From Desulfovibrio sp. (GTDB taxonomy: Bacteria > Desulfobacterota > Desulfovibrionia > Desulfovibrionales > Desulfovibrionaceae): a stretch of 15,204 nucleotides of DNA. Position numbers and translations under genes: made by a program. This document shows positions 3,032 to 9,377 of the stretch, piece after piece. Below the pieces are notes generated by a model, which saw only the letters and a list, made by a program, of their open reading frames with translations, did not search any database and was not told the origin of the DNA. The stretch covers positions 1 through 15,204 of the forward strand of contig JAITDR010000210.1 in the NCBI GenBank assembly GCA_031282465.1. Reading direction: 5' to 3'. Position 1 is the first letter of the stretch; each line of letters opens with the position of its first letter.

Positions 3032-3364
3032 ATGGAAATAGTGCATTACATCACCGAAGACGGCACGGACTTGTACCGGAAATGGGTGGATGCCCTGCGG
3101 GACAATCGCGCCAAGATTGCCGTTTTGCGGCGAATTGACCGGGCGGCTATGGGTAATTTCAGCGACCACAAGCTTTGCCGGGACGGCGTTTCAGAAATGC
3201 GCGTCGATGTGGGGCCGGGATACCGGGTGTATTATTTCCTGCATGACCAAACGTCGGTCGTGCTTCTGTGCGGAGGCGACAAGCGTACTCAGGACGCGGA
3301 TATCAACAAGGCCGTTGCCTGCAGGGACGATTTTCTACGCCGGATGAAGGAGGAATTGGAATGA
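3032..3364 (+). CDS. Type II toxin, RelE/ParE superfamily (addiction module killer protein type)
   Basis: A 110-residue basic protein resembling the Gp49/HigB-like killer proteins, whose relatives act as ribosome-dependent or free mRNA interferases. Seen here are an N-terminal Y-I-T-E-D-G-T-D-L-Y-R-K-W-V-D-A-L-R-D segment, a central KLCRDGVSEMRVDVGPGYRV (57-76) and the LLCGGDKRTQDADI stretch (88-101). These match, from memory, the family pattern G-V-x-E-L-R-x-x-x-G-P-G-Y-R-V-Y followed by L-L-x-G-G-D-K-x-T-Q-x-x-D-I. The ATG at 3032 has only a weak ribosome-binding site. A TTGACA hexamer at 2999-3004 could be a -35 box, but no good -10 follows. The stop overlaps the antitoxin start as ATGA. 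Toxin-first order is typical of this subfamily. The reading frame is intact, and a degraded relative lies at 8478-8635. Confidence 0.85.
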   Translation: MEIVHYITEDGTDLYRKWVDALRDNRAKIAVLRRIDRAAMGNFSDHKLCRDGVSEMRVDVGPGYRVYYFLHDQTSVVLLCGGDKRTQDADINKAVACRDDFLRRMKEELE

Positions 3365-3672
3365 GCAAGCCGTACATTTCGCACGAAGAATCTACCATTG
3401 AGAGCTTCAAAAACGACCCGGGCTATGCCGCCGAGTATCTGAACGCCGTACTTGAAGACGGCGACCAGGAAGAACTTATGCTCGCCCTGCGCCGTGTCGC
3501 TTCGGCCTTCGGCATGAAGGACACGGCGGAAACTGCGGAGCTGAACCCCAAAACGCTCTACCGTACTCTCTCTCCCGCCGGAAATCCCGAACTGCGGAGT
3601 TTCCAGGCCATCCTTGGGGCAATGGGTATGCGCCTGGCGGTAACGCCCCTGGCGCGGGAGCAACATCAATAG
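3361..3672 (+). CDS. Antitoxin of the addiction module, HTH type
   Basis: A 103-residue partner of the upstream toxin, expected to bind and neutralise it and to repress the shared promoter. The protein has an N-terminal partner-binding part with Y21-L-N-A-V-L-E-D-G-D, then A36-L-R-R-V-A-S-A-F-G-M, and a helix-turn-helix region around AETAELNPKTLYRTLSPAGN (about 56-75), ending in FQAILGAMGMRLAVTP. This layout matches the probable addiction module antidote family that accompanies Gp49-like killers. The ATG at 3361 overlaps the toxin stop by four bases (ATGA), so translation is coupled. An in-frame extension to 3268 exists but would lie inside the toxin gene and is not needed. It ends 38 bases from the convergent BKACE stop; no clear terminator is visible in that gap. 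Confidence 0.85.
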   Translation: MSKPYISHEESTIESFKNDPGYAAEYLNAVLEDGDQEELMLALRRVASAFGMKDTAETAELNPKTLYRTLSPAGNPELRSFQAILGAMGMRLAVTPLAREQHQ

Positions 3673-3710: not shown

Positions 3711-4643
3711 TCAGAAGCACACCTTGTCCGAACCTTTGAGTTGAAGTATGGCCCTGGCCTCATCCGGGTCGGCGATTTCCCGCCCCAGCGTTTCGATTAT
3801 CCCGCGTACGGCCGTGACCTGCTCGGCGCTGTTCTCGGCCGGCACGCCCGGCTTCAGGTACAGGTTGTCCTCCAGTCCCACGCGGGTGTTTCCGCCCATC
3901 GCGGCAGCCGCGGCGACCACGGGGAACTGGTGACGCCCCGCGGCCGCACAGGACCACACGTACTTCCCCTTGCCCAATAACTCGTCGGCCGTACGGCGTA
4001 GAAAGACCAGGTTGTCCACCGTGGCCGGCATCCCTCCCATGATGCCCAGAACAAACTGGATATAGACAAGCCCGGAAATGCTGCCCTCCTCTTTCAGGTA
4101 GGCGATGTTGTTGATCATTCCGCTGTCGTAGACTTCAAATTCCGGCAGGGAGCCATGTTCCGCCATGGTTTTCAGATAATAGCGCAATCCTTTGAAAGTA
4201 TTTGTAAATACAAGGTCCTCAGTATTTTCCAGATAGGGGATTTCCCAGTCGTGCAGGGGCTTGGCCATCTTTTTGTTCCGGGCCAGAGGACCGAGGTAGA
4301 AATTGAATGATCCGGCGTTACAGGAAGCTATTTCAGGTTTGAAAAGGGAAACCCCCGAAACGCGTTCTTCCAAGCTCATGCCGAGTCCGCCGCCGGTGGT
4401 CAGGCAAATCACGGCGTTGCAGCGTTTCTTGATGCCGGAAAGGATGGTTTCCAAAATTTTTTTGTCCACCGAGGGCCGGCCGTTGCCGGGGTCGCGCCCG
4501 TGGATATGCACAACCGCCGCCCCGGCTTCGCAGGCGCCCACCGCATGGTCGATAATTTGCCGTTCGGTTACCGGAAGATGTTCCGAAAGGCTCGGGGTGT
4601 GAATAGCGCCGGTAATCGCCGCTGTAATCAACGTCTTACCCAT
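3711..4643 (-). CDS. Beta-keto acid cleavage enzyme (BKACE, DUF849; 3-keto-5-aminohexanoate cleavage type)
   Basis: Zn-dependent TIM-barrel enzyme family in which a beta-keto acid and acetyl-CoA are converted to acetoacetate and a new CoA ester. With the start at 4643 the metal ligands H46 and H48 lie in VVHIHGRDPGNGRP, at the same numbers I recall for the lysine-fermentation enzyme Kce. The R254-V-G-L-E258-D259-N motif corresponds to Kce R226, E230 and D231, so the active site appears intact. The start at 4643 is preferred because AGAGGAAA lies seven bases upstream and MGKTLITAAITGA is the usual N-terminus; an in-frame extension to 4712 would run into the transporter gene. Length is 310 residues. 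It is the second gene of a two-gene unit, 25 bases after the AtoE-like transporter. Substrate is unknown: lysine-pathway genes such as kdd or kal are not in the window, so the symbol kce is not given. Confidence 0.9.
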   Translation of the reverse strand: MGKTLITAAITGAIHTPSLSEHLPVTERQIIDHAVGACEAGAAVVHIHGRDPGNGRPSVDKKILETILSGIKKRCNAVICLTTGGGLGMSLEERVSGVSLFKPEIASCNAGSFNFYLGPLARNKKMAKPLHDWEIPYLENTEDLVFTNTFKGLRYYLKTMAEHGSLPEFEVYDSGMINNIAYLKEEGSISGLVYIQFVLGIMGGMPATVDNLVFLRRTADELLGKGKYVWSCAAAGRHQFPVVAAAAAMGGNTRVGLEDNLYLKPGVPAENSAEQVTAVRGIIETLGREIADPDEARAILQLKGSDKVCF

Positions 4644-4668
4644 AGTGAAATTTCCTCTTTTTTCAGAA

Positions 4669-6072
4669 TCACATGACAAAGGGCAGGAAATAAATTCCCA
4701 GCCCCAGCACAACGCCGTAAATTATGCACAGGGTGAGGCCGTAAGGGAGAATCTGCTGGAAGCGCACTTTGAAAGCGCCCAGAATCGGCAGAGCCCAGAA
4801 CGGCTGGATGAGATTCGTCCATAAATCCCCGAGCACATAGGAGTTGACGACGTATGGAATCCCGACGCCGAGCTGCTGTGCCGCCGGAACCGTATAGGGA
4901 GCTTCAATGACGAACTTCGAGCCGCCGGACGGCACGAAGATGTTCATGATGCCGGAATAGATGAAGTTGATGAGCGGGAAGGATTCCTTGCTGGAAATGC
5001 TCACAAACCAGCCCGCGATAACTCCGGAAAGGCCGGAATTGGAGATTATGCCGAAAATCCCGGCATAGAACGGAAACTGAATGATGACGCCTCCCACTGT
5101 AATGACGCCGCGTCCCACCGATGCCGTAAAACTGCGCAGACTTCTGTGCATGAGCAGGCCGAGCATGAGCATGATGAAATTAAGCGAATTCAGGTCCAAT
5201 TTGCCTATGCCCTGTCTGATCAGAAAATCCGCGGCCCAGATCAGCCCGAGTATGCCGATGATCAACGGCAGGGCAAAAGAGGTGTTGAGAAATTCGGCCG
5301 GGGTGCGGTTGGTCGGTTGAGCCTCGGGTGCCTCGGCCAGGAATTCCTCGGCCAATTCCTCGGAAATCTCCTCCGCCTTGTCTCCGGCGGGGGCCATGAG
5401 CATGAACAGGACGGGCAGGCTCAGCACCAGAATGACGTTCAAAAGAATCATCTGCGGCATGAATACGGTTTCCGTGATGGGAATGACACCCGTGAGTTTT
5501 TCAATAAAGTGTCCCGGCGTCGCCACCAGCAGCGGCGGAGCCTGTGAAGGTCCTCCGGCGCAAACGATGCCTGCGTAGGCCATGGCGGCGATCATGGGGT
5601 AGTGCAGGCCGGAGCCCCTGTTGCGGGCAGCCAGTTCGCGGCCCATGATGATGCCGAGCATAAGGCCGATGCCCCAATGCAGCCACCAGACCACGGCCAG
5701 AATCAGACCGTACCAGAACAGAAGTTTGCGCGTCGACTTGAACATGGTGACGAACCTGGTGATGCCGCGCCGCGCAATCTTTGAATCCGCCAGCACAAAG
5801 CCCGTGATCATAAGGATGCTCATCTGCATGGCGAACGTAAGAAGCTGCCAGAATCCCTTGATCCAATCCTGCAACAGCTCGTAAGGCCCGTGCGGGGTCA
5901 GCCCGAAAGCCATGACAAATATGACCAGGGTGAGGGCAAGGACAAACACCATGGAATCAGGAATCCATTTCACGCTCCACACCGAAAACCATTCCACAAA
6001 GCGGTTGAAAACGTTGTCCCTCCCTGCGGAAGTACCTTGAGAATGAGCCGTCTTTCGAACTGATTGAGACAT
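4669..6072 (-). CDS. atoE: Short-chain fatty acid transporter, AtoE family
   Basis: Inner-membrane carrier of 467 residues (E. coli AtoE is about 440), likely bringing in short-chain acids or keto acids. There are about ten or more hydrophobic segments (for example 40-56, 80-95, 116-144, 205-227, 264-283, 296-308, 322-356, 366-382, 422-434, 443-464). Two stretches are typical of AtoE: FVPSGGSKFVIEAP (379-392) and GDLWTNLIQPFWALP (415-429). Between them and the N-terminal half lies a strongly acidic loop (231-250, rich in Glu). The ATG at 6072 is chosen because AGAGAGGG precedes it by a few bases and MSQSVRK leads into FNRFVEWFSVWSVKWIPDS, the family start. The open frame extends upstream to 6240, but those 56 residues do not look like transporter and fall in the leader of the sigma-54 promoter. 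The adjacent BKACE suggests the cargo is a beta-keto acid or its precursor. Confidence 0.88.
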   Translation of the reverse strand: MSQSVRKTAHSQGTSAGRDNVFNRFVEWFSVWSVKWIPDSMVFVLALTLVIFVMAFGLTPHGPYELLQDWIKGFWQLLTFAMQMSILMITGFVLADSKIARRGITRFVTMFKSTRKLLFWYGLILAVVWWLHWGIGLMLGIIMGRELAARNRGSGLHYPMIAAMAYAGIVCAGGPSQAPPLLVATPGHFIEKLTGVIPITETVFMPQMILLNVILVLSLPVLFMLMAPAGDKAEEISEELAEEFLAEAPEAQPTNRTPAEFLNTSFALPLIIGILGLIWAADFLIRQGIGKLDLNSLNFIMLMLGLLMHRSLRSFTASVGRGVITVGGVIIQFPFYAGIFGIISNSGLSGVIAGWFVSISSKESFPLINFIYSGIMNIFVPSGGSKFVIEAPYTVPAAQQLGVGIPYVVNSYVLGDLWTNLIQPFWALPILGAFKVRFQQILPYGLTLCIIYGVVLGLGIYFLPFVM

Positions 6073-6250
6073 TATTCCCTCTCTTGAAATGATGCTGATC
6101 GCCCGCAACTTTTTGTGTTTGAGATTGCCGCTTGAGGGCGGACAAAGCTCTCCTGTGCCGTTCGGGCAGAGGGAAGCCGTGAGGATTCCCCCTGCTCGAT
6201 CAACGCGCCGTTGCGAACTGCTGAAATACGCGTCAAACAAAGAGGAAAAA

Positions 6251-6265
6251 GCAAATATCGGGCCG
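6251..6265 (-). promoter_or_regulatory. Sigma-54 promoter for the atoE-BKACE operon
   Basis: Read on the - strand the sequence is CGGCCCGATATTTGC, a GG-N10-GC element with the TTGC -12 box intact and one departure inside the -24 box (consensus TGGCACG-N4-TTGC). GG is at 6264-6263 and GC at 6252-6251. Transcription would start near 6239, leaving a leader of about 167 bases before atoE. The divergent sigma-54 activator makes this site credible. Confidence 0.65.
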
Positions 6266-6364
6266 ACCTCCCGGTTCTTTGCCGATCTCCGTTCGTTTTT
6301 CCTGTAATTTTCCGTTGATGCGGCTTGCGCGCCCTTGCGCGGTCAAGTGTGTTGAGCGGCGTCC

Positions 6365-6397
6365 GTTTTTATGAAAAAAAAAATTGTATTTTTTTCG
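6365..6397. promoter_or_regulatory. A/T tract between the divergent promoters, probable intrinsic bend
   Basis: A run of ten A at about 6374-6383 and a run of seven T at 6388-6394 lie in an otherwise GC-rich region. GTCCG just before (6361-6365) and CGGAC just after (6395-6399) are inverted, so the tract sits in the centre of a large imperfect inverted repeat. Bent or IHF-bound DNA is common between a sigma-54 activator site and its promoter. No clear match to the IHF consensus is visible. Confidence 0.4.
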
Positions 6398-6432
6398 GAC
6401 ACCGTGTACGCATGTATGACCTGAAAAAAGAC

Positions 6433-6471
6433 AATTTCCCCGCCGCGCAAAAGCGCAAAAGCCGGGAAATT
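6433..6471. promoter_or_regulatory. Nested inverted repeat upstream of the regulator promoter, candidate activator site
   Basis: AATTTCCC (6433-6440) and GGGAAATT (6464-6471) are perfect 8-base inverted arms. Between them lies a second inverted repeat, GCGC-AAAA-GCGC (6445-6456), and the motif GCGCAAAA occurs twice in tandem (6445-6460). The site ends 12 bases before the -24 GG of the + strand sigma-54 promoter and lies about 170-210 bases upstream of the - strand one, within normal enhancer distance. Confidence 0.45.
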
Positions 6472-6482
6472 CGCATTTGATT

Positions 6483-6498
6483 CGGCACAGGATTTGCG
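6483..6498 (+). promoter_or_regulatory. Sigma-54 promoter for the regulator gene
   Basis: CGGCACAGGATTTGCG has GG at 6484-6485 and GC at 6496-6497, exactly ten bases apart, and matches GGCAC-N5-TTGC closely. Start of transcription would be near 6508, about 150 bases before the ATG. A sigma-70 alternative overlaps it: TTGACA at 6502-6507 with a poor -10 (GCAAAT) 17 bases later. Confidence 0.65.
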
Positions 6499-6509
6499 AG
6501 CTTGACACT

Positions 6510-6525
6510 CCGCAATGGTTTGCGG
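6510..6525. promoter_or_regulatory. Palindrome at the predicted start of regulator transcription
   Basis: CCGCAA-TGGT-TTGCGG is a perfect 6-base inverted repeat with a 4-base centre. It is framed by a second pair, GATTTGC (6491-6497, overlapping the -12 box) and GCAAATC (6525-6531). Its position at +1 would suit an operator for self-repression, or a hairpin at the 5' end of the mRNA. Confidence 0.4.
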
Positions 6526-6658
6526 CAAATCTTTGTTGTGCGATGCGCTTGGGCGGGCTGTGCCCCCTCAGGCGCATCTCAAGCGTGAACCGCCGTAGTC
6601 CGCGGGTGGGGCGGGCGACTGCAACCTTCCGGGAAAGCGACGAAAATATGGGGGGCCG

Positions 6659-8347
6659 ATGAATCGGGCAGAGCGGGCAAACGCCGTTTCCGTCCCGACC
6701 GAGACGCTCGCGGTCTTATCCCCTGTCGTGCGCGTCCTTCCCCCATTTGTTCTCGAATACACAAAACGCCGGCAAAGACACCCTGCCTTCTCCCTGCGCA
6801 GCGCGCAAAACGCCCCGGACAGCCCCCGGCATCGCGAACTGTTTTCGCGCCTGAAGGAAAAAGACCGGACCACATGGTGCGGAGAGGGATGTTGCCTCGG
6901 TTTCGTCCTTATCTCCGGCGAGACCCTGATCCTGGGTTGGGAAGAGAAAATACCGGAGGACAGCCGCCCCTTCGCCTGTATGCTGCTGCAAATCGTCGCC
7001 CGTGACCTGGAAAATGATACATGTATACGTGCGCTACGGGAGGAAGTCGAGTTCGGGCAGGAAATCGTGCAATCCATTTCCTCGGGTTTTCTGGTTCTCG
7101 CCCCGGATCTTACAGTGACCAAGGCCAACGCGGAGGCCTGTTTCATCCTGGAGACGAGCCGGGACAGGCTGGTGGACTCCAAGCTCACGGAGCACATTTT
7201 TTCTCCCTTGCTGATCAGGGAGATTTTCGCCACCGGCAAGCCGATTATAGACCGGGAAGTCGTTATCAGGCTGGCCTGTAAGGATGTGCGTATCCTTAAA
7301 ACAGCGGCCCCGGTTTTCGGAAAGGACGGTTCGGTCATCGCCGTTCTGGACCACTTCAAAAAGCTGGAAGAAGCCCGCAGGCCGGCTGCGCGCACCGTCG
7401 GCGCCAAGGCGAGGTTCTGTTTCAACGACCTTGTCCACGCAAGCCGCGCTATGCGCGATACTGTGGAGTTGGGCAAACAGGCCGCCGACAATTCGCTGCC
7501 CGTGCTGATCACAGGGGAAAGCGGCACCGGCAAGGAACTGCTCGCGCACGCCATCCACACCGCAGGCAAACGCAGCAGGAAGCCCTTTGTGGTCATAGAC
7601 TGCGCTGCGCTCCCGCGAGATCTGGCGGCAAGCGAGCTTTTCGGCCATGTGGAGGGAGCTTTCACGGGGGCGCGCAGGGGCGGGATGCCGGGGAAATTCG
7701 AACTCGCCGACGGCGGCACCCTGTTCCTTGATGAACTGGGTGAGCTGCCGCGGGAAGTGCAGGCGCAGTTCCTCCGGGTTCTCCAGAGCCGGGAAGTGCG
7801 GCGCCTGGGCGGCAAAGACGTTGTCCCCGTGGATGTACGCATCCTCGCCGCCACCAACCGCGACCTCTCCCAAGACGTCCGAGACGGACATTTCCGCGAA
7901 GACCTTTACTACAGGCTGAACGTCCTCTCCATACACATGCCGGCCCTGCGCTCGCGCCCCGAAGACATCCGGCTCCTGGCGGGATACTTCAGCCGCAAGT
8001 ACTGTCTTGCGGACAACAAGCCGGAAGTGTCTTTCACCGACGAGGCCCTTGCCGCGCTTCAGGCCGATGCCTGGGTCGGCAACGTGCGGGAGTTGGAAAA
8101 CACCATCGCGCGGGCCGTGCATACCTGCGGCGGCGTTATTGAGGCGAGACATGTGATGCGCAGCTCTCCCGCGCCGGTTCCGGCGCTGGAGGACGCCGCG
8201 GGCGGCGCCGTTTCCCTGAAGGATATGGAGAAAAGCGCCATCATGCAGACCCTCTCCGCCTGTTCGGGAAATATAAGCCGCAGTGCCGAAAGACTGGGGA
8301 TTTCCCGCAGCACCTTGTACAAAAAAATGGCCGCGTGGACCCGCTGA
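6659..8347 (+). CDS. Sigma-54-dependent transcriptional activator (PAS / AAA+ / Fis-type HTH)
   Basis: Enhancer-binding protein of 562 residues that couples ATP hydrolysis to opening of sigma-54 promoters. The N-terminal 120 residues are a possible sensor I cannot assign; it contains a small Cys cluster (C74, C78, C79). A PAS-like domain spans about 130-235 (SGFLVLAPDLTVTKANAEAC). The AAA+ domain spans about 260-490 with Walker A GESGTGKE (286-293), the sigma-54 contact loop GAFTGA (333-338), Walker B GTLFLDE (353-359) and the REDLYYRLNV arginine-finger region (413-422). A Fis-type helix-turn-helix closes the protein (GNISRSAERLGISRSTLYKK, about 539-558). All activator residues are present, so it should be functional. 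ATG at 6659 follows a G-rich stretch that can act as ribosome-binding site. The divergent position and the flanking GG-N10-GC promoters make the atoE-BKACE operon its likely target. The ligand is not evident. Confidence 0.92.
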   Translation: MNRAERANAVSVPTETLAVLSPVVRVLPPFVLEYTKRRQRHPAFSLRSAQNAPDSPRHRELFSRLKEKDRTTWCGEGCCLGFVLISGETLILGWEEKIPEDSRPFACMLLQIVARDLENDTCIRALREEVEFGQEIVQSISSGFLVLAPDLTVTKANAEACFILETSRDRLVDSKLTEHIFSPLLIREIFATGKPIIDREVVIRLACKDVRILKTAAPVFGKDGSVIAVLDHFKKLEEARRPAARTVGAKARFCFNDLVHASRAMRDTVELGKQAADNSLPVLITGESGTGKELLAHAIHTAGKRSRKPFVVIDCAALPRDLAASELFGHVEGAFTGARRGGMPGKFELADGGTLFLDELGELPREVQAQFLRVLQSREVRRLGGKDVVPVDVRILAATNRDLSQDVRDGHFREDLYYRLNVLSIHMPALRSRPEDIRLLAGYFSRKYCLADNKPEVSFTDEALAALQADAWVGNVRELENTIARAVHTCGGVIEARHVMRSSPAPVPALEDAAGGAVSLKDMEKSAIMQTLSACSGNISRSAERLGISRSTLYKKMAAWTR

Positions 8348-8807: not shown

Positions 8808-9377
8808 ATGAAGCTTTGCGACCCCGCGAGCCTCAACTCCGCCGAGATGACCATGCGATTGATGTGCCGTATTTTTCTTTTGGCCGCCGTCTTCCTTGTT
8901 ACGGCGGGAGCGTCCGGCGCCGTTTACGGCGAGGAAGCTTTCTCTCCGTACCCTGCAACGCCGGCGCTGCATACAGGCATTTTCCCCTCGCGCCTCCTCT
9001 TACCCGCGCCCGGCGACGCGCAGGCCGCTCCGCGTTACTCCCGCCCTGATTTCCTCTCTGTTGCCCCTGACGGAGCCGAAGGCTCCCTTGACGAGCAAGC
9101 GGATCCCCATGCGGCGGATCCTTGCATCCGTTCCGAACGCCGATTCCCAACCGCGCTCGGCAGCCGGGAAAAAAAGAAAAACCTCGGAACGCATGACGCC
9201 GTTCTCGACGTCGGGACAATTTCCTCTACTGCCGCGTTGCGCGGTCAAAAACTCCTTACCCTGAACGCGAATCCGCTGTTCGGCGGCATGGATCGCAGCA
9301 TACGCCTCGGCGAACCCCGCGCAAGTCCCTCATCACTCTCCTTGGGAAGAGGCGGGCCGAGGCAGGCCGCCGTTTAG
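8808..9377 (+). CDS. Hypothetical secreted protein
   Basis: An unrecognised 189-residue frame. Residues 16-41 look like a Sec signal peptide: positive n-region (MRLMCR), hydrophobic core IFLLAAVFLVTAGASGA, and a probable cleavage after A-V-Y-G before EEAFSPYP. In-frame ATG codons at 8847, 8853 and 8862 would give a more usual signal peptide than the ATG at 8808, whose first 13 residues look spurious; no strong Shine-Dalgarno decides it. The mature part (about 150 residues) is rich in Pro, Ala, Arg and Ser, has no predicted membrane segment, and holds one basic patch (SREKKKN near 138-145) and the stretch LLTLNANPLFGGMDRSIRLG. No domain is apparent. It stands alone between a pseudogene and a repeat element, so it may be a lineage-specific or decaying gene. 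Confidence 0.5.
   Translation: MKLCDPASLNSAEMTMRLMCRIFLLAAVFLVTAGASGAVYGEEAFSPYPATPALHTGIFPSRLLLPAPGDAQAAPRYSRPDFLSVAPDGAEGSLDEQADPHAADPCIRSERRFPTALGSREKKKNLGTHDAVLDVGTISSTAALRGQKLLTLNANPLFGGMDRSIRLGEPRASPSSLSLGRGGPRQAAV

Follow-up and report, generated by a model that had tools for sequence, protein, structure and literature searches.

An AtoE-type carrier and a beta-keto acid cleavage enzyme (BKACE) form a tight two-gene operon in Desulfovibrio sp., with a sigma-54-dependent activator divergent from it. The 15,204 nucleotides analyzed here (the window) make up contig C4 in a genome of 277 contigs and 1.96 Mb, which is 67.31% complete. We find the three-gene unit to be real and sensible, and its support as a unit exceeds what the window alone could tell. 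Its parts are of known kinds, and the carrier-BKACE-activator set is a further example of these. We give even chances to an inducible catabolic role in which BKACE would convert a short, neutral beta-keto acid, supplied as such or as its 3-hydroxy precursor, to an acyl-CoA and acetoacetate. The original prediction had placed the three genes at 3711..8347; its coordinates agree with ours, the BKACE stop lying at 3711 and the activator stop at 8347 (Table 1). The operon it proposed is confirmed by a gap of 25 nt between the carrier stop and the BKACE ATG, on one strand, as read from the sequence and the table of open reading frames. Both operon genes are taken from their ATG codons (starts at 4643 and 6072); the mechanical reading frames, with TTG starts, are longer (333 and 523 aa).

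Table 1. Genes and candidate regulatory sites of the carrier-BKACE-activator unit (window positions)
Feature	Position	Strand	Description
BKACE (beta-keto acid cleavage enzyme, DUF849)	3711..4643	-	310 aa, ATG start; PF05853, NF053538, catalytic residues
AtoE-type short-chain fatty acid carrier ('AtoE1')	4669..6072	-	467 aa, ATG start, first gene of the operon; PF02667, TIGR00366
Sigma-54-dependent activator (enhancer-binding protein)	6659..8347	+	562 aa; AAA+ 259-426, Fis-type HTH 520-560, PAS match 139-240 under cut-off
Putative sigma-54 -24/-12 box of the operon, CGGCCCGATATTTGCT	6250..6265	-	Upstream of the carrier
Putative second sigma-54 box, CGGCACAGGATTTGCG	6483..6498	+	Towards the activator; p ~0.07 in a 350-bp region
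Weak candidate activator-binding core, ATACATGCGTAC	6406..6417		Between the two boxes; 3 mismatches to CTACATGTGTAG of L060; speculative

Residues 3-302 of BKACE match the whole PF05853 profile (1-274 of 274; 329.6 bits, cut-off 24.8, 1.9e-98). The predicted active-site residues H46, H48, R254, E258 and D259 were found at those exact positions; we take them to be the two metal-binding histidines and the R..ED motif, by analogy with the Kce structure. Family and residues together predict an acetyl-CoA-dependent cleavage activity, and we know of no assay of any close relative. The best NCBIfam model is NF053538 (3,5-dioxohexanoate transferase), at 406.7 bits. The closest named chemistry, as a leading candidate only, is cleavage of 3,5-dioxohexanoate, the reaction that directly precedes acetoacetyl-CoA when phloroglucinol is degraded anaerobically. 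The enzyme might be a triacetate acetoacetate-lyase, in a cell that scavenges 3-hydroxy-5-oxohexanoate or 3,5-dioxohexanoate freed by phloroglucinol degraders, a reading that we consider possible but unlikely. NF053538 favors it as the best model; however, the score is under the curated cut-off (430), and the model is blind to gene context. Two BKACEs of the window clade, P0025 and P0074, reach 433.7 and 436.6 bits, those of cyclase-BKACE-SDR-3HCDH clusters reach 390-400 bits, and the scores do not separate contexts.

Lysine fermentation, that is, cleavage of 3-keto-5-aminohexanoate, is suggested by general homology and by the automatic names of several homologs. However, the residue at the position of Kce Glu14, which binds the 5-amino group of the substrate (PMC10470551), is isoleucine (Ile14), and the Lys_ferment_KCE model (NF052387) gives 236.6 bits against a cut-off of 382. 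On these two grounds we reject the lysine pathway, which appears very improbable and had already been described as not evident.

The carrier matches PF02667 (SCFA_trans) with 342 bits (7.8e-102, profile 8-453 of 453) and TIGR00366 with 335.4 bits, under the curated cut-off of 575.75. A second carrier in the same genome is 33-34% identical to it. Relatives at least 59% identical were found in G008, G282 and G284 only, among 288 genomes of the family. The same-genus genome G014 keeps a carrier fragment (83% identity over 41 residues), and therefore the unit seems to be gained and lost.

The activator matches PF00158 (4.8e-67) and HTH_8 (2.7e-14). Walker motifs are present, with GESGTGKE at residue 286 and DELGELP at 358, and the predicted GAFTGA loop was found at residue 333. 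The activator had been called complete, which holds for the AAA+ and DNA-binding parts; the first ~57 residues lack conservation in the closest relatives, and the Pfam scan found no sensor domain above cut-off (the PAS match scores 20 bits, cut-off 23.1). A frameshifted N-terminus was rejected, as tblastn with the first 200 residues of three relatives gave significant matches in the activator's own frame only. Among the 288 family genomes, matches at 1e-150 or better occur in the genome itself, G007, G008 and G282. The three relatives are at least 54% identical, and all lie on contigs with a BKACE, in one cluster in G007 and G008 and at a distance of ~6.4 kb in G282 (contig C184).

RpoN is encoded in the window genome (PF04552, 1.2e-59, contig C233). 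We built a box matrix from four boxes upstream of BKACE genes, one in G007 and three in G282, two of the latter lying in similar flanks and so not being independent. Under this matrix, CGGCCCGATATTTGCT ranks second among all window positions on both strands, after a site at 8333 that lies within the activator gene. Across family loci that overlap in part, 616,476 positions in all, 13 reach the score of CGGCCCGATATTTGCT, counting the training sites. The best box of the G008 operon, CGGCAGGGGGTTTGCA, shows less resemblance. With a generic sigma-54 consensus, the region of CGGCCCGATATTTGCT has p = 0.038, other BKACE-linked regions with a box 0.04-0.3, and ten control regions 0.17-1.0; this consensus gave no good box in G283, G284 or L010, nor for the G008 activator or immediately upstream of G008 BKACE1. 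With p 0.04-0.3 in the better regions and nothing in five others, we discarded the generic consensus by itself as proof of a promoter. That promoter statistics are modest singly (p 0.04-0.3) is also a point against our best reading. We regard CGGCCCGATATTTGCT as a candidate sigma-54 promoter of the operon, with moderate support from its resemblance to the boxes that precede BKACE genes of two related genomes. Together with rpoN, this candidate promoter upholds the predicted sigma-54 control in outline. No box comparable to CGGCACAGGATTTGCG was seen for the G008 activator (best score 11, p 0.59). An activator-binding palindrome is clear in L051, L060 and L059 and weak in the window, where we keep it as speculation.

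BKACE matches at E 1e-3 occur in 15 of the 288 family genomes, including the window genome. At 1e-100, the class search retrieved five copies in 4 of 348 genomes (the window genome, G008, G282 and G283). At 1e-85, 53 of 395 genomes in an even phylum sample have a match, again counting the window genome, the others being 45-56% identical. The carrier-BKACE pair is adjacent in three of the five window-clade copies, which come from 4 of 288 family genomes. The pair recurs in G008, G282 and a Syntrophales genome (L010; carrier 52% identical); the full transporter-BKACE-activator triplet was found in one further genome, that of same-genus G008, among the 288. In G008 (L051), BKACE2, 3HCDH, carrier2, BKACE1 and carrier1 follow each other on one strand, with the activator relative (57%) divergent. 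G282 (L055) has a BKACE1-carrier1 pair, and its other BKACE1 is accompanied by a TRAP carrier and a PanE-like protein; the activator relative of G282 shares contig C184 with yet another BKACE. G007 (L060) shows the order BKACE2, 3HCDH, carrier2, activator. In G283 (L053) a lone BKACE1 adjoins a CoA-transferase and a crotonase, and in G284 (L090) a type III CoA-transferase, a thiolase and carrier1 (59% identical) lie on a contig that has no BKACE. Partners thus vary, one of the five window-clade copies having a TRAP carrier and one a CoA-transferase and crotonase, which weighs against our best reading.

Beyond the family, we included 60 of 61 non-own phylum matches (G691 left out) and L001-L018 of 19 GTDB loci (the partial L019 left out); L013 and L200 are apparently one record, with an identical protein. 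A carrier of the same protein family as the window's lies near BKACE in 4 of the 60 phylum loci (adjacent in L184, L195 and L209, ~2.9 kb off in L177) and 2 of the 18 GTDB loci (L010 and L016). Identity to the window carrier is 32-34% in L184, L195, L209 and L016, and 37% in L177. Most phylum relatives of BKACE are therefore without a window-type carrier, which also counts against our best reading. A 3HCDH protein was found near BKACE in 28 of the 60 phylum loci (tblastn, 1e-12); these many neighbors fit the import of a hydroxy acid, and the window itself has none.

AtoE is an acetoacetate carrier. The window carrier may likewise move acetoacetate, in or out, with the BKACE substrate arising in the cell or with BKACE catalyzing the reverse reaction from an acyl-CoA and imported acetoacetate; we regard this as a minority possibility. 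In its support, E. coli atoE sits in the atoDAEB operon, turned on by AtoSC upon acetoacetate induction (PMC3118216), the G284 carrier adjoins a thiolase, and the reverse reaction was demonstrated for CsTAL, the triacetate acetoacetate-lyase of Clostridium scatologenes (PMC10470551). However, BKACE genes of relatives lie beside unrelated carrier classes, TRAP (DctP by Pfam, DctM-like by tblastn) and, judged by eye, SSS-like and TctA-like, a pattern more in keeping with import of different substrates than with a common product.

Further linkage of the pair was sought through contig sizes. In this indirect test, we compared the exact longest-contig sizes of the best 120 BKACE and best 120 carrier matches. 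Seven sizes are shared (2633, 4672, 6194, 6489, 22671, 107249 and 246617); a control with jittered sizes, run 1000 times, averaged 0.76 shared sizes and never exceeded 5. Source names agree in five of these pairs and overlap in two (22671 and 107249). A second BKACE list (119 of 120 sizes used) shares one size, 6618, with differing sources. The 2,633-base contig has room for little beyond the carrier and BKACE genes, and the two longest (107249 and 246617) show both genes on one contig and nothing closer. One of the seven is the already known pair of G282; another, P0044 (107249), bears a Firmicutes name. The test has blind spots, as it missed the known window and G008 pairs, for which the carrier list has other contigs or omits the clusters. 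The pair is probably present on six further contigs, one of them named Firmicutes.

In a quick tree of 129 BKACE rows with SH-aLRT supports, the window BKACE falls in a 39-row clade (support 100) of rows from its own family, metagenomes and the named Firmicutes P0044, P0054, P0074 and P0103. Clade-typical residues include C232 (36 of 39 rows) and A233 (38 of 39). None of the PDB chains included lies within this clade; BKACE15, 3e49 and 3lot group in a different one (97). A third clade (100) comprises eight BKACEs (L183, L185, L186, L190, L191, L194, L199 and L201). A 3HCDH lies in the stretch around each of the eight, and L191, L194, L199 and L201 also have a cyclase match; L186 has a cyclase-like ORF, judged by eye. 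We called these clusters phloroglucinol type on the gene set described in PMC10470551; the cyclase, SDR and 3HCDH of L199 and the SDR of L194 were run against Pfam.

This third clade bears on the lyase alternative. Over 39 hand-chosen pocket positions near strand ends, it shares 25-28 with the window BKACE, against 19 for BKACE15 (3lot and 3e49 share 21-22). Moreover, the G008 pair lies in a one-strand run with a second BKACE that has Trp at the Glu14 position, as CsTAL does, and with a 3HCDH protein that has 51-57% identity to its counterparts near phloroglucinol-type-clade BKACEs. However, as many positions are matched by TRAP-linked (25), other carrier-linked (23-28) and Dehalococcoidia (31) BKACEs, the Firmicutes clade-mates sharing 30-31. 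We dropped pocket positions as a substrate indicator because they do not separate contexts. Also against a lyase, the window BKACE falls outside the cyclase-BKACE-SDR-3HCDH clade, and no PF04199 cyclase was found in its genome (67% complete), for which we likewise discarded a complete phloroglucinol pathway. The open reading frames and family scan of the window showed no cyclase, SDR reductase or 3HCDH beside BKACE.

The genome has one BKACE, one thiolase above cut-off (contig C113), four CoA_trans stretches on three contigs and one 3HCDH_N protein. The last adjoins the thiolase and fits the 3-hydroxybutyryl-CoA dehydrogenase model above cut-off (451.3, cut-off 408), and was discarded on that account as the missing hydroxy-acid dehydrogenase. 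The original prediction rightly noted that the window holds no thiolase or CoA-transferase; its conclusion that an acetoacetate route is not evident does not extend to the genome. Acetoacetate can therefore be handled, and the absence of these genes is an effect of the window. The original prediction is thus partly supported: it stands as to operon, outline of sigma-54 control, exclusion of lysine fermentation and recurrence of the pair, and is not supported as to the absent acetoacetate route; its import of a beta-keto acid is one possibility beside that of a hydroxy-acid precursor or acetoacetate.

In our preferred reading, inducible beta-keto acid catabolism, the activator and RpoN-polymerase would switch on the operon at CGGCCCGATATTTGCT. 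The carrier would import a short carboxylate (~C5-C6) whose tail bears no charge. With the exception of acetoacetate, free beta-keto acids are prone to decarboxylation, and the import is thus more likely a 3-hydroxy precursor, oxidized by a dehydrogenase encoded elsewhere, than the beta-keto acid itself. BKACE, judging from family and residues, would then form acetoacetate and a new acyl-CoA from the beta-keto acid and acetyl-CoA, and the CoA-transferase and thiolase seen elsewhere in the genome may turn acetoacetate into acetyl-CoA. In favor of this reading are the family and residues of BKACE, the recurring carrier-BKACE pair, the shared contig sizes, the G284 carrier next to a thiolase and a type III CoA-transferase, the activator relatives on BKACE-bearing contigs, and the RpoN, thiolase, CoA-transferase and 3-hydroxybutyryl-CoA dehydrogenase genes of the genome. 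It counts against this reading that no dehydrogenase lies beside the operon and that the sole 3HCDH_N match, in a genome 67% complete, is of the 3-hydroxybutyryl-CoA type.

Several known systems resemble parts of the unit. Like the window, the E. coli atoSC-atoDAEB system combines an AtoE-family carrier, acetoacetate chemistry and a sigma-54 activator (PMC3118216). Its operon has a CoA-transferase and thiolase where the window has BKACE; the window carrier falls under the TIGR00366 cut-off, and the window activator shows no receiver domain in the family scan. BKACE15 of Paracoccus denitrificans (PDB 8RIO, 8RIP and 9HNF) is 46% identical to the window BKACE and like it in family, length and catalytic residues; it differs in clade and at 20 of the 39 pocket positions. 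Its substrates include beta-ketohexanoate and 3,5-dioxohexanoate (PMC11961710). CsTAL, known here from its description, belongs to the BKACE family and lacks Glu14, as does the window enzyme, with Trp16 in place of Ile14; unlike the window BKACE, it has PGR, DPGC and a dehydrogenase as neighbors in a phloroglucinol cluster (PMC10470551). The deoxyribonate operon of Pseudomonas simiae also combines a carrier and BKACE in one catabolic operon, with MFS carriers, an SDR dehydrogenase and a lactonase, none of which lies beside the window operon (PMC6365646). The carrier-BKACE pair is not named in titles or abstract openings of the open-licence literature searched, and could already have been published.

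The range of possible BKACE substrates is wide, and most of the homologs found here that bear a name are labeled after lysine fermentation. A carrier-enzyme pair recurring across phyla narrows the search, as carrier subfamily and enzyme clade should share a substrate. We also offer, as a long shot, that the BKACE clade common to the window's family and Firmicutes, often paired with a carrier subfamily of its own, forms a new specificity group, with which anaerobes would scavenge, under a dedicated sigma-54 switch and along an undescribed cross-feeding route, a beta-keto or beta-hydroxy acid lost by their neighbors during polyphenol breakdown. If the substrate is a polyphenol-derived acid, Desulfovibrio-like bacteria would be tied to plant-polyphenol turnover as feeders on partial products.

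Five BKACE copies are carried by a single genome of the family, G282, on contigs C117, C171, C184 and C58 (loci L054, L055, L057, L059 and L061). These copies differ in their carriers, which are of the AtoE and TRAP types according to Pfam and SSS-like or TctA-like when judged by eye, and in their dehydrogenases, which are PanE-like, 3HCDH (3-hydroxyacyl-CoA dehydrogenase-type) or of the DRL/SAF type. At L055, (AC)n tracts begin immediately 3' of the -12 box of the putative sigma-54 promoters, upstream of a BKACE gene and of a PanE-like gene; a third promoter region at L055 7298 is alike and has no such tract. The (AC)n-bearing promoter of G282 could be a length-variable promoter.

Features located in the window and in related genomes
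Feature	Location	Strand	Remarks
Long (AC)n tracts	L055 1086-1140 and 6700-6754		G282
Carrier remnant, 41 residues	L092 9314-9436		G014, window's genus
Toxin-antitoxin pair, HI1419/HI1420-type	window 3032-3672	+	TIGR02683 over cut-off, TIGR02684 barely over
189-aa ORF	window 8808-9374	+	between sigma-54 activator and CstA

The carrier remnant of G014 shares 83% identity over its 41 residues with the window carrier, and the stretch matched in the genome search contains one stop. In another genome of the family, G284, a type III CoA-transferase frame (L090 2-1110) adjoining a thiolase and a carrier is broken by an in-frame stop at L090 767-769.

Within the window itself, the toxin-antitoxin pair immediately adjoins the BKACE operon. 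The 189-aa ORF had no match in Pfam or NCBIfam at 1e-3.

Elsewhere in the phylum, at L186, L191, L194, L199 and L201, a BKACE of the 310-aa type is clustered with a cyclase and a 3HCDH, and an SDR protein intervenes at L186, L194, L199 and L201. These five clusters look like those of phloroglucinol degradation.
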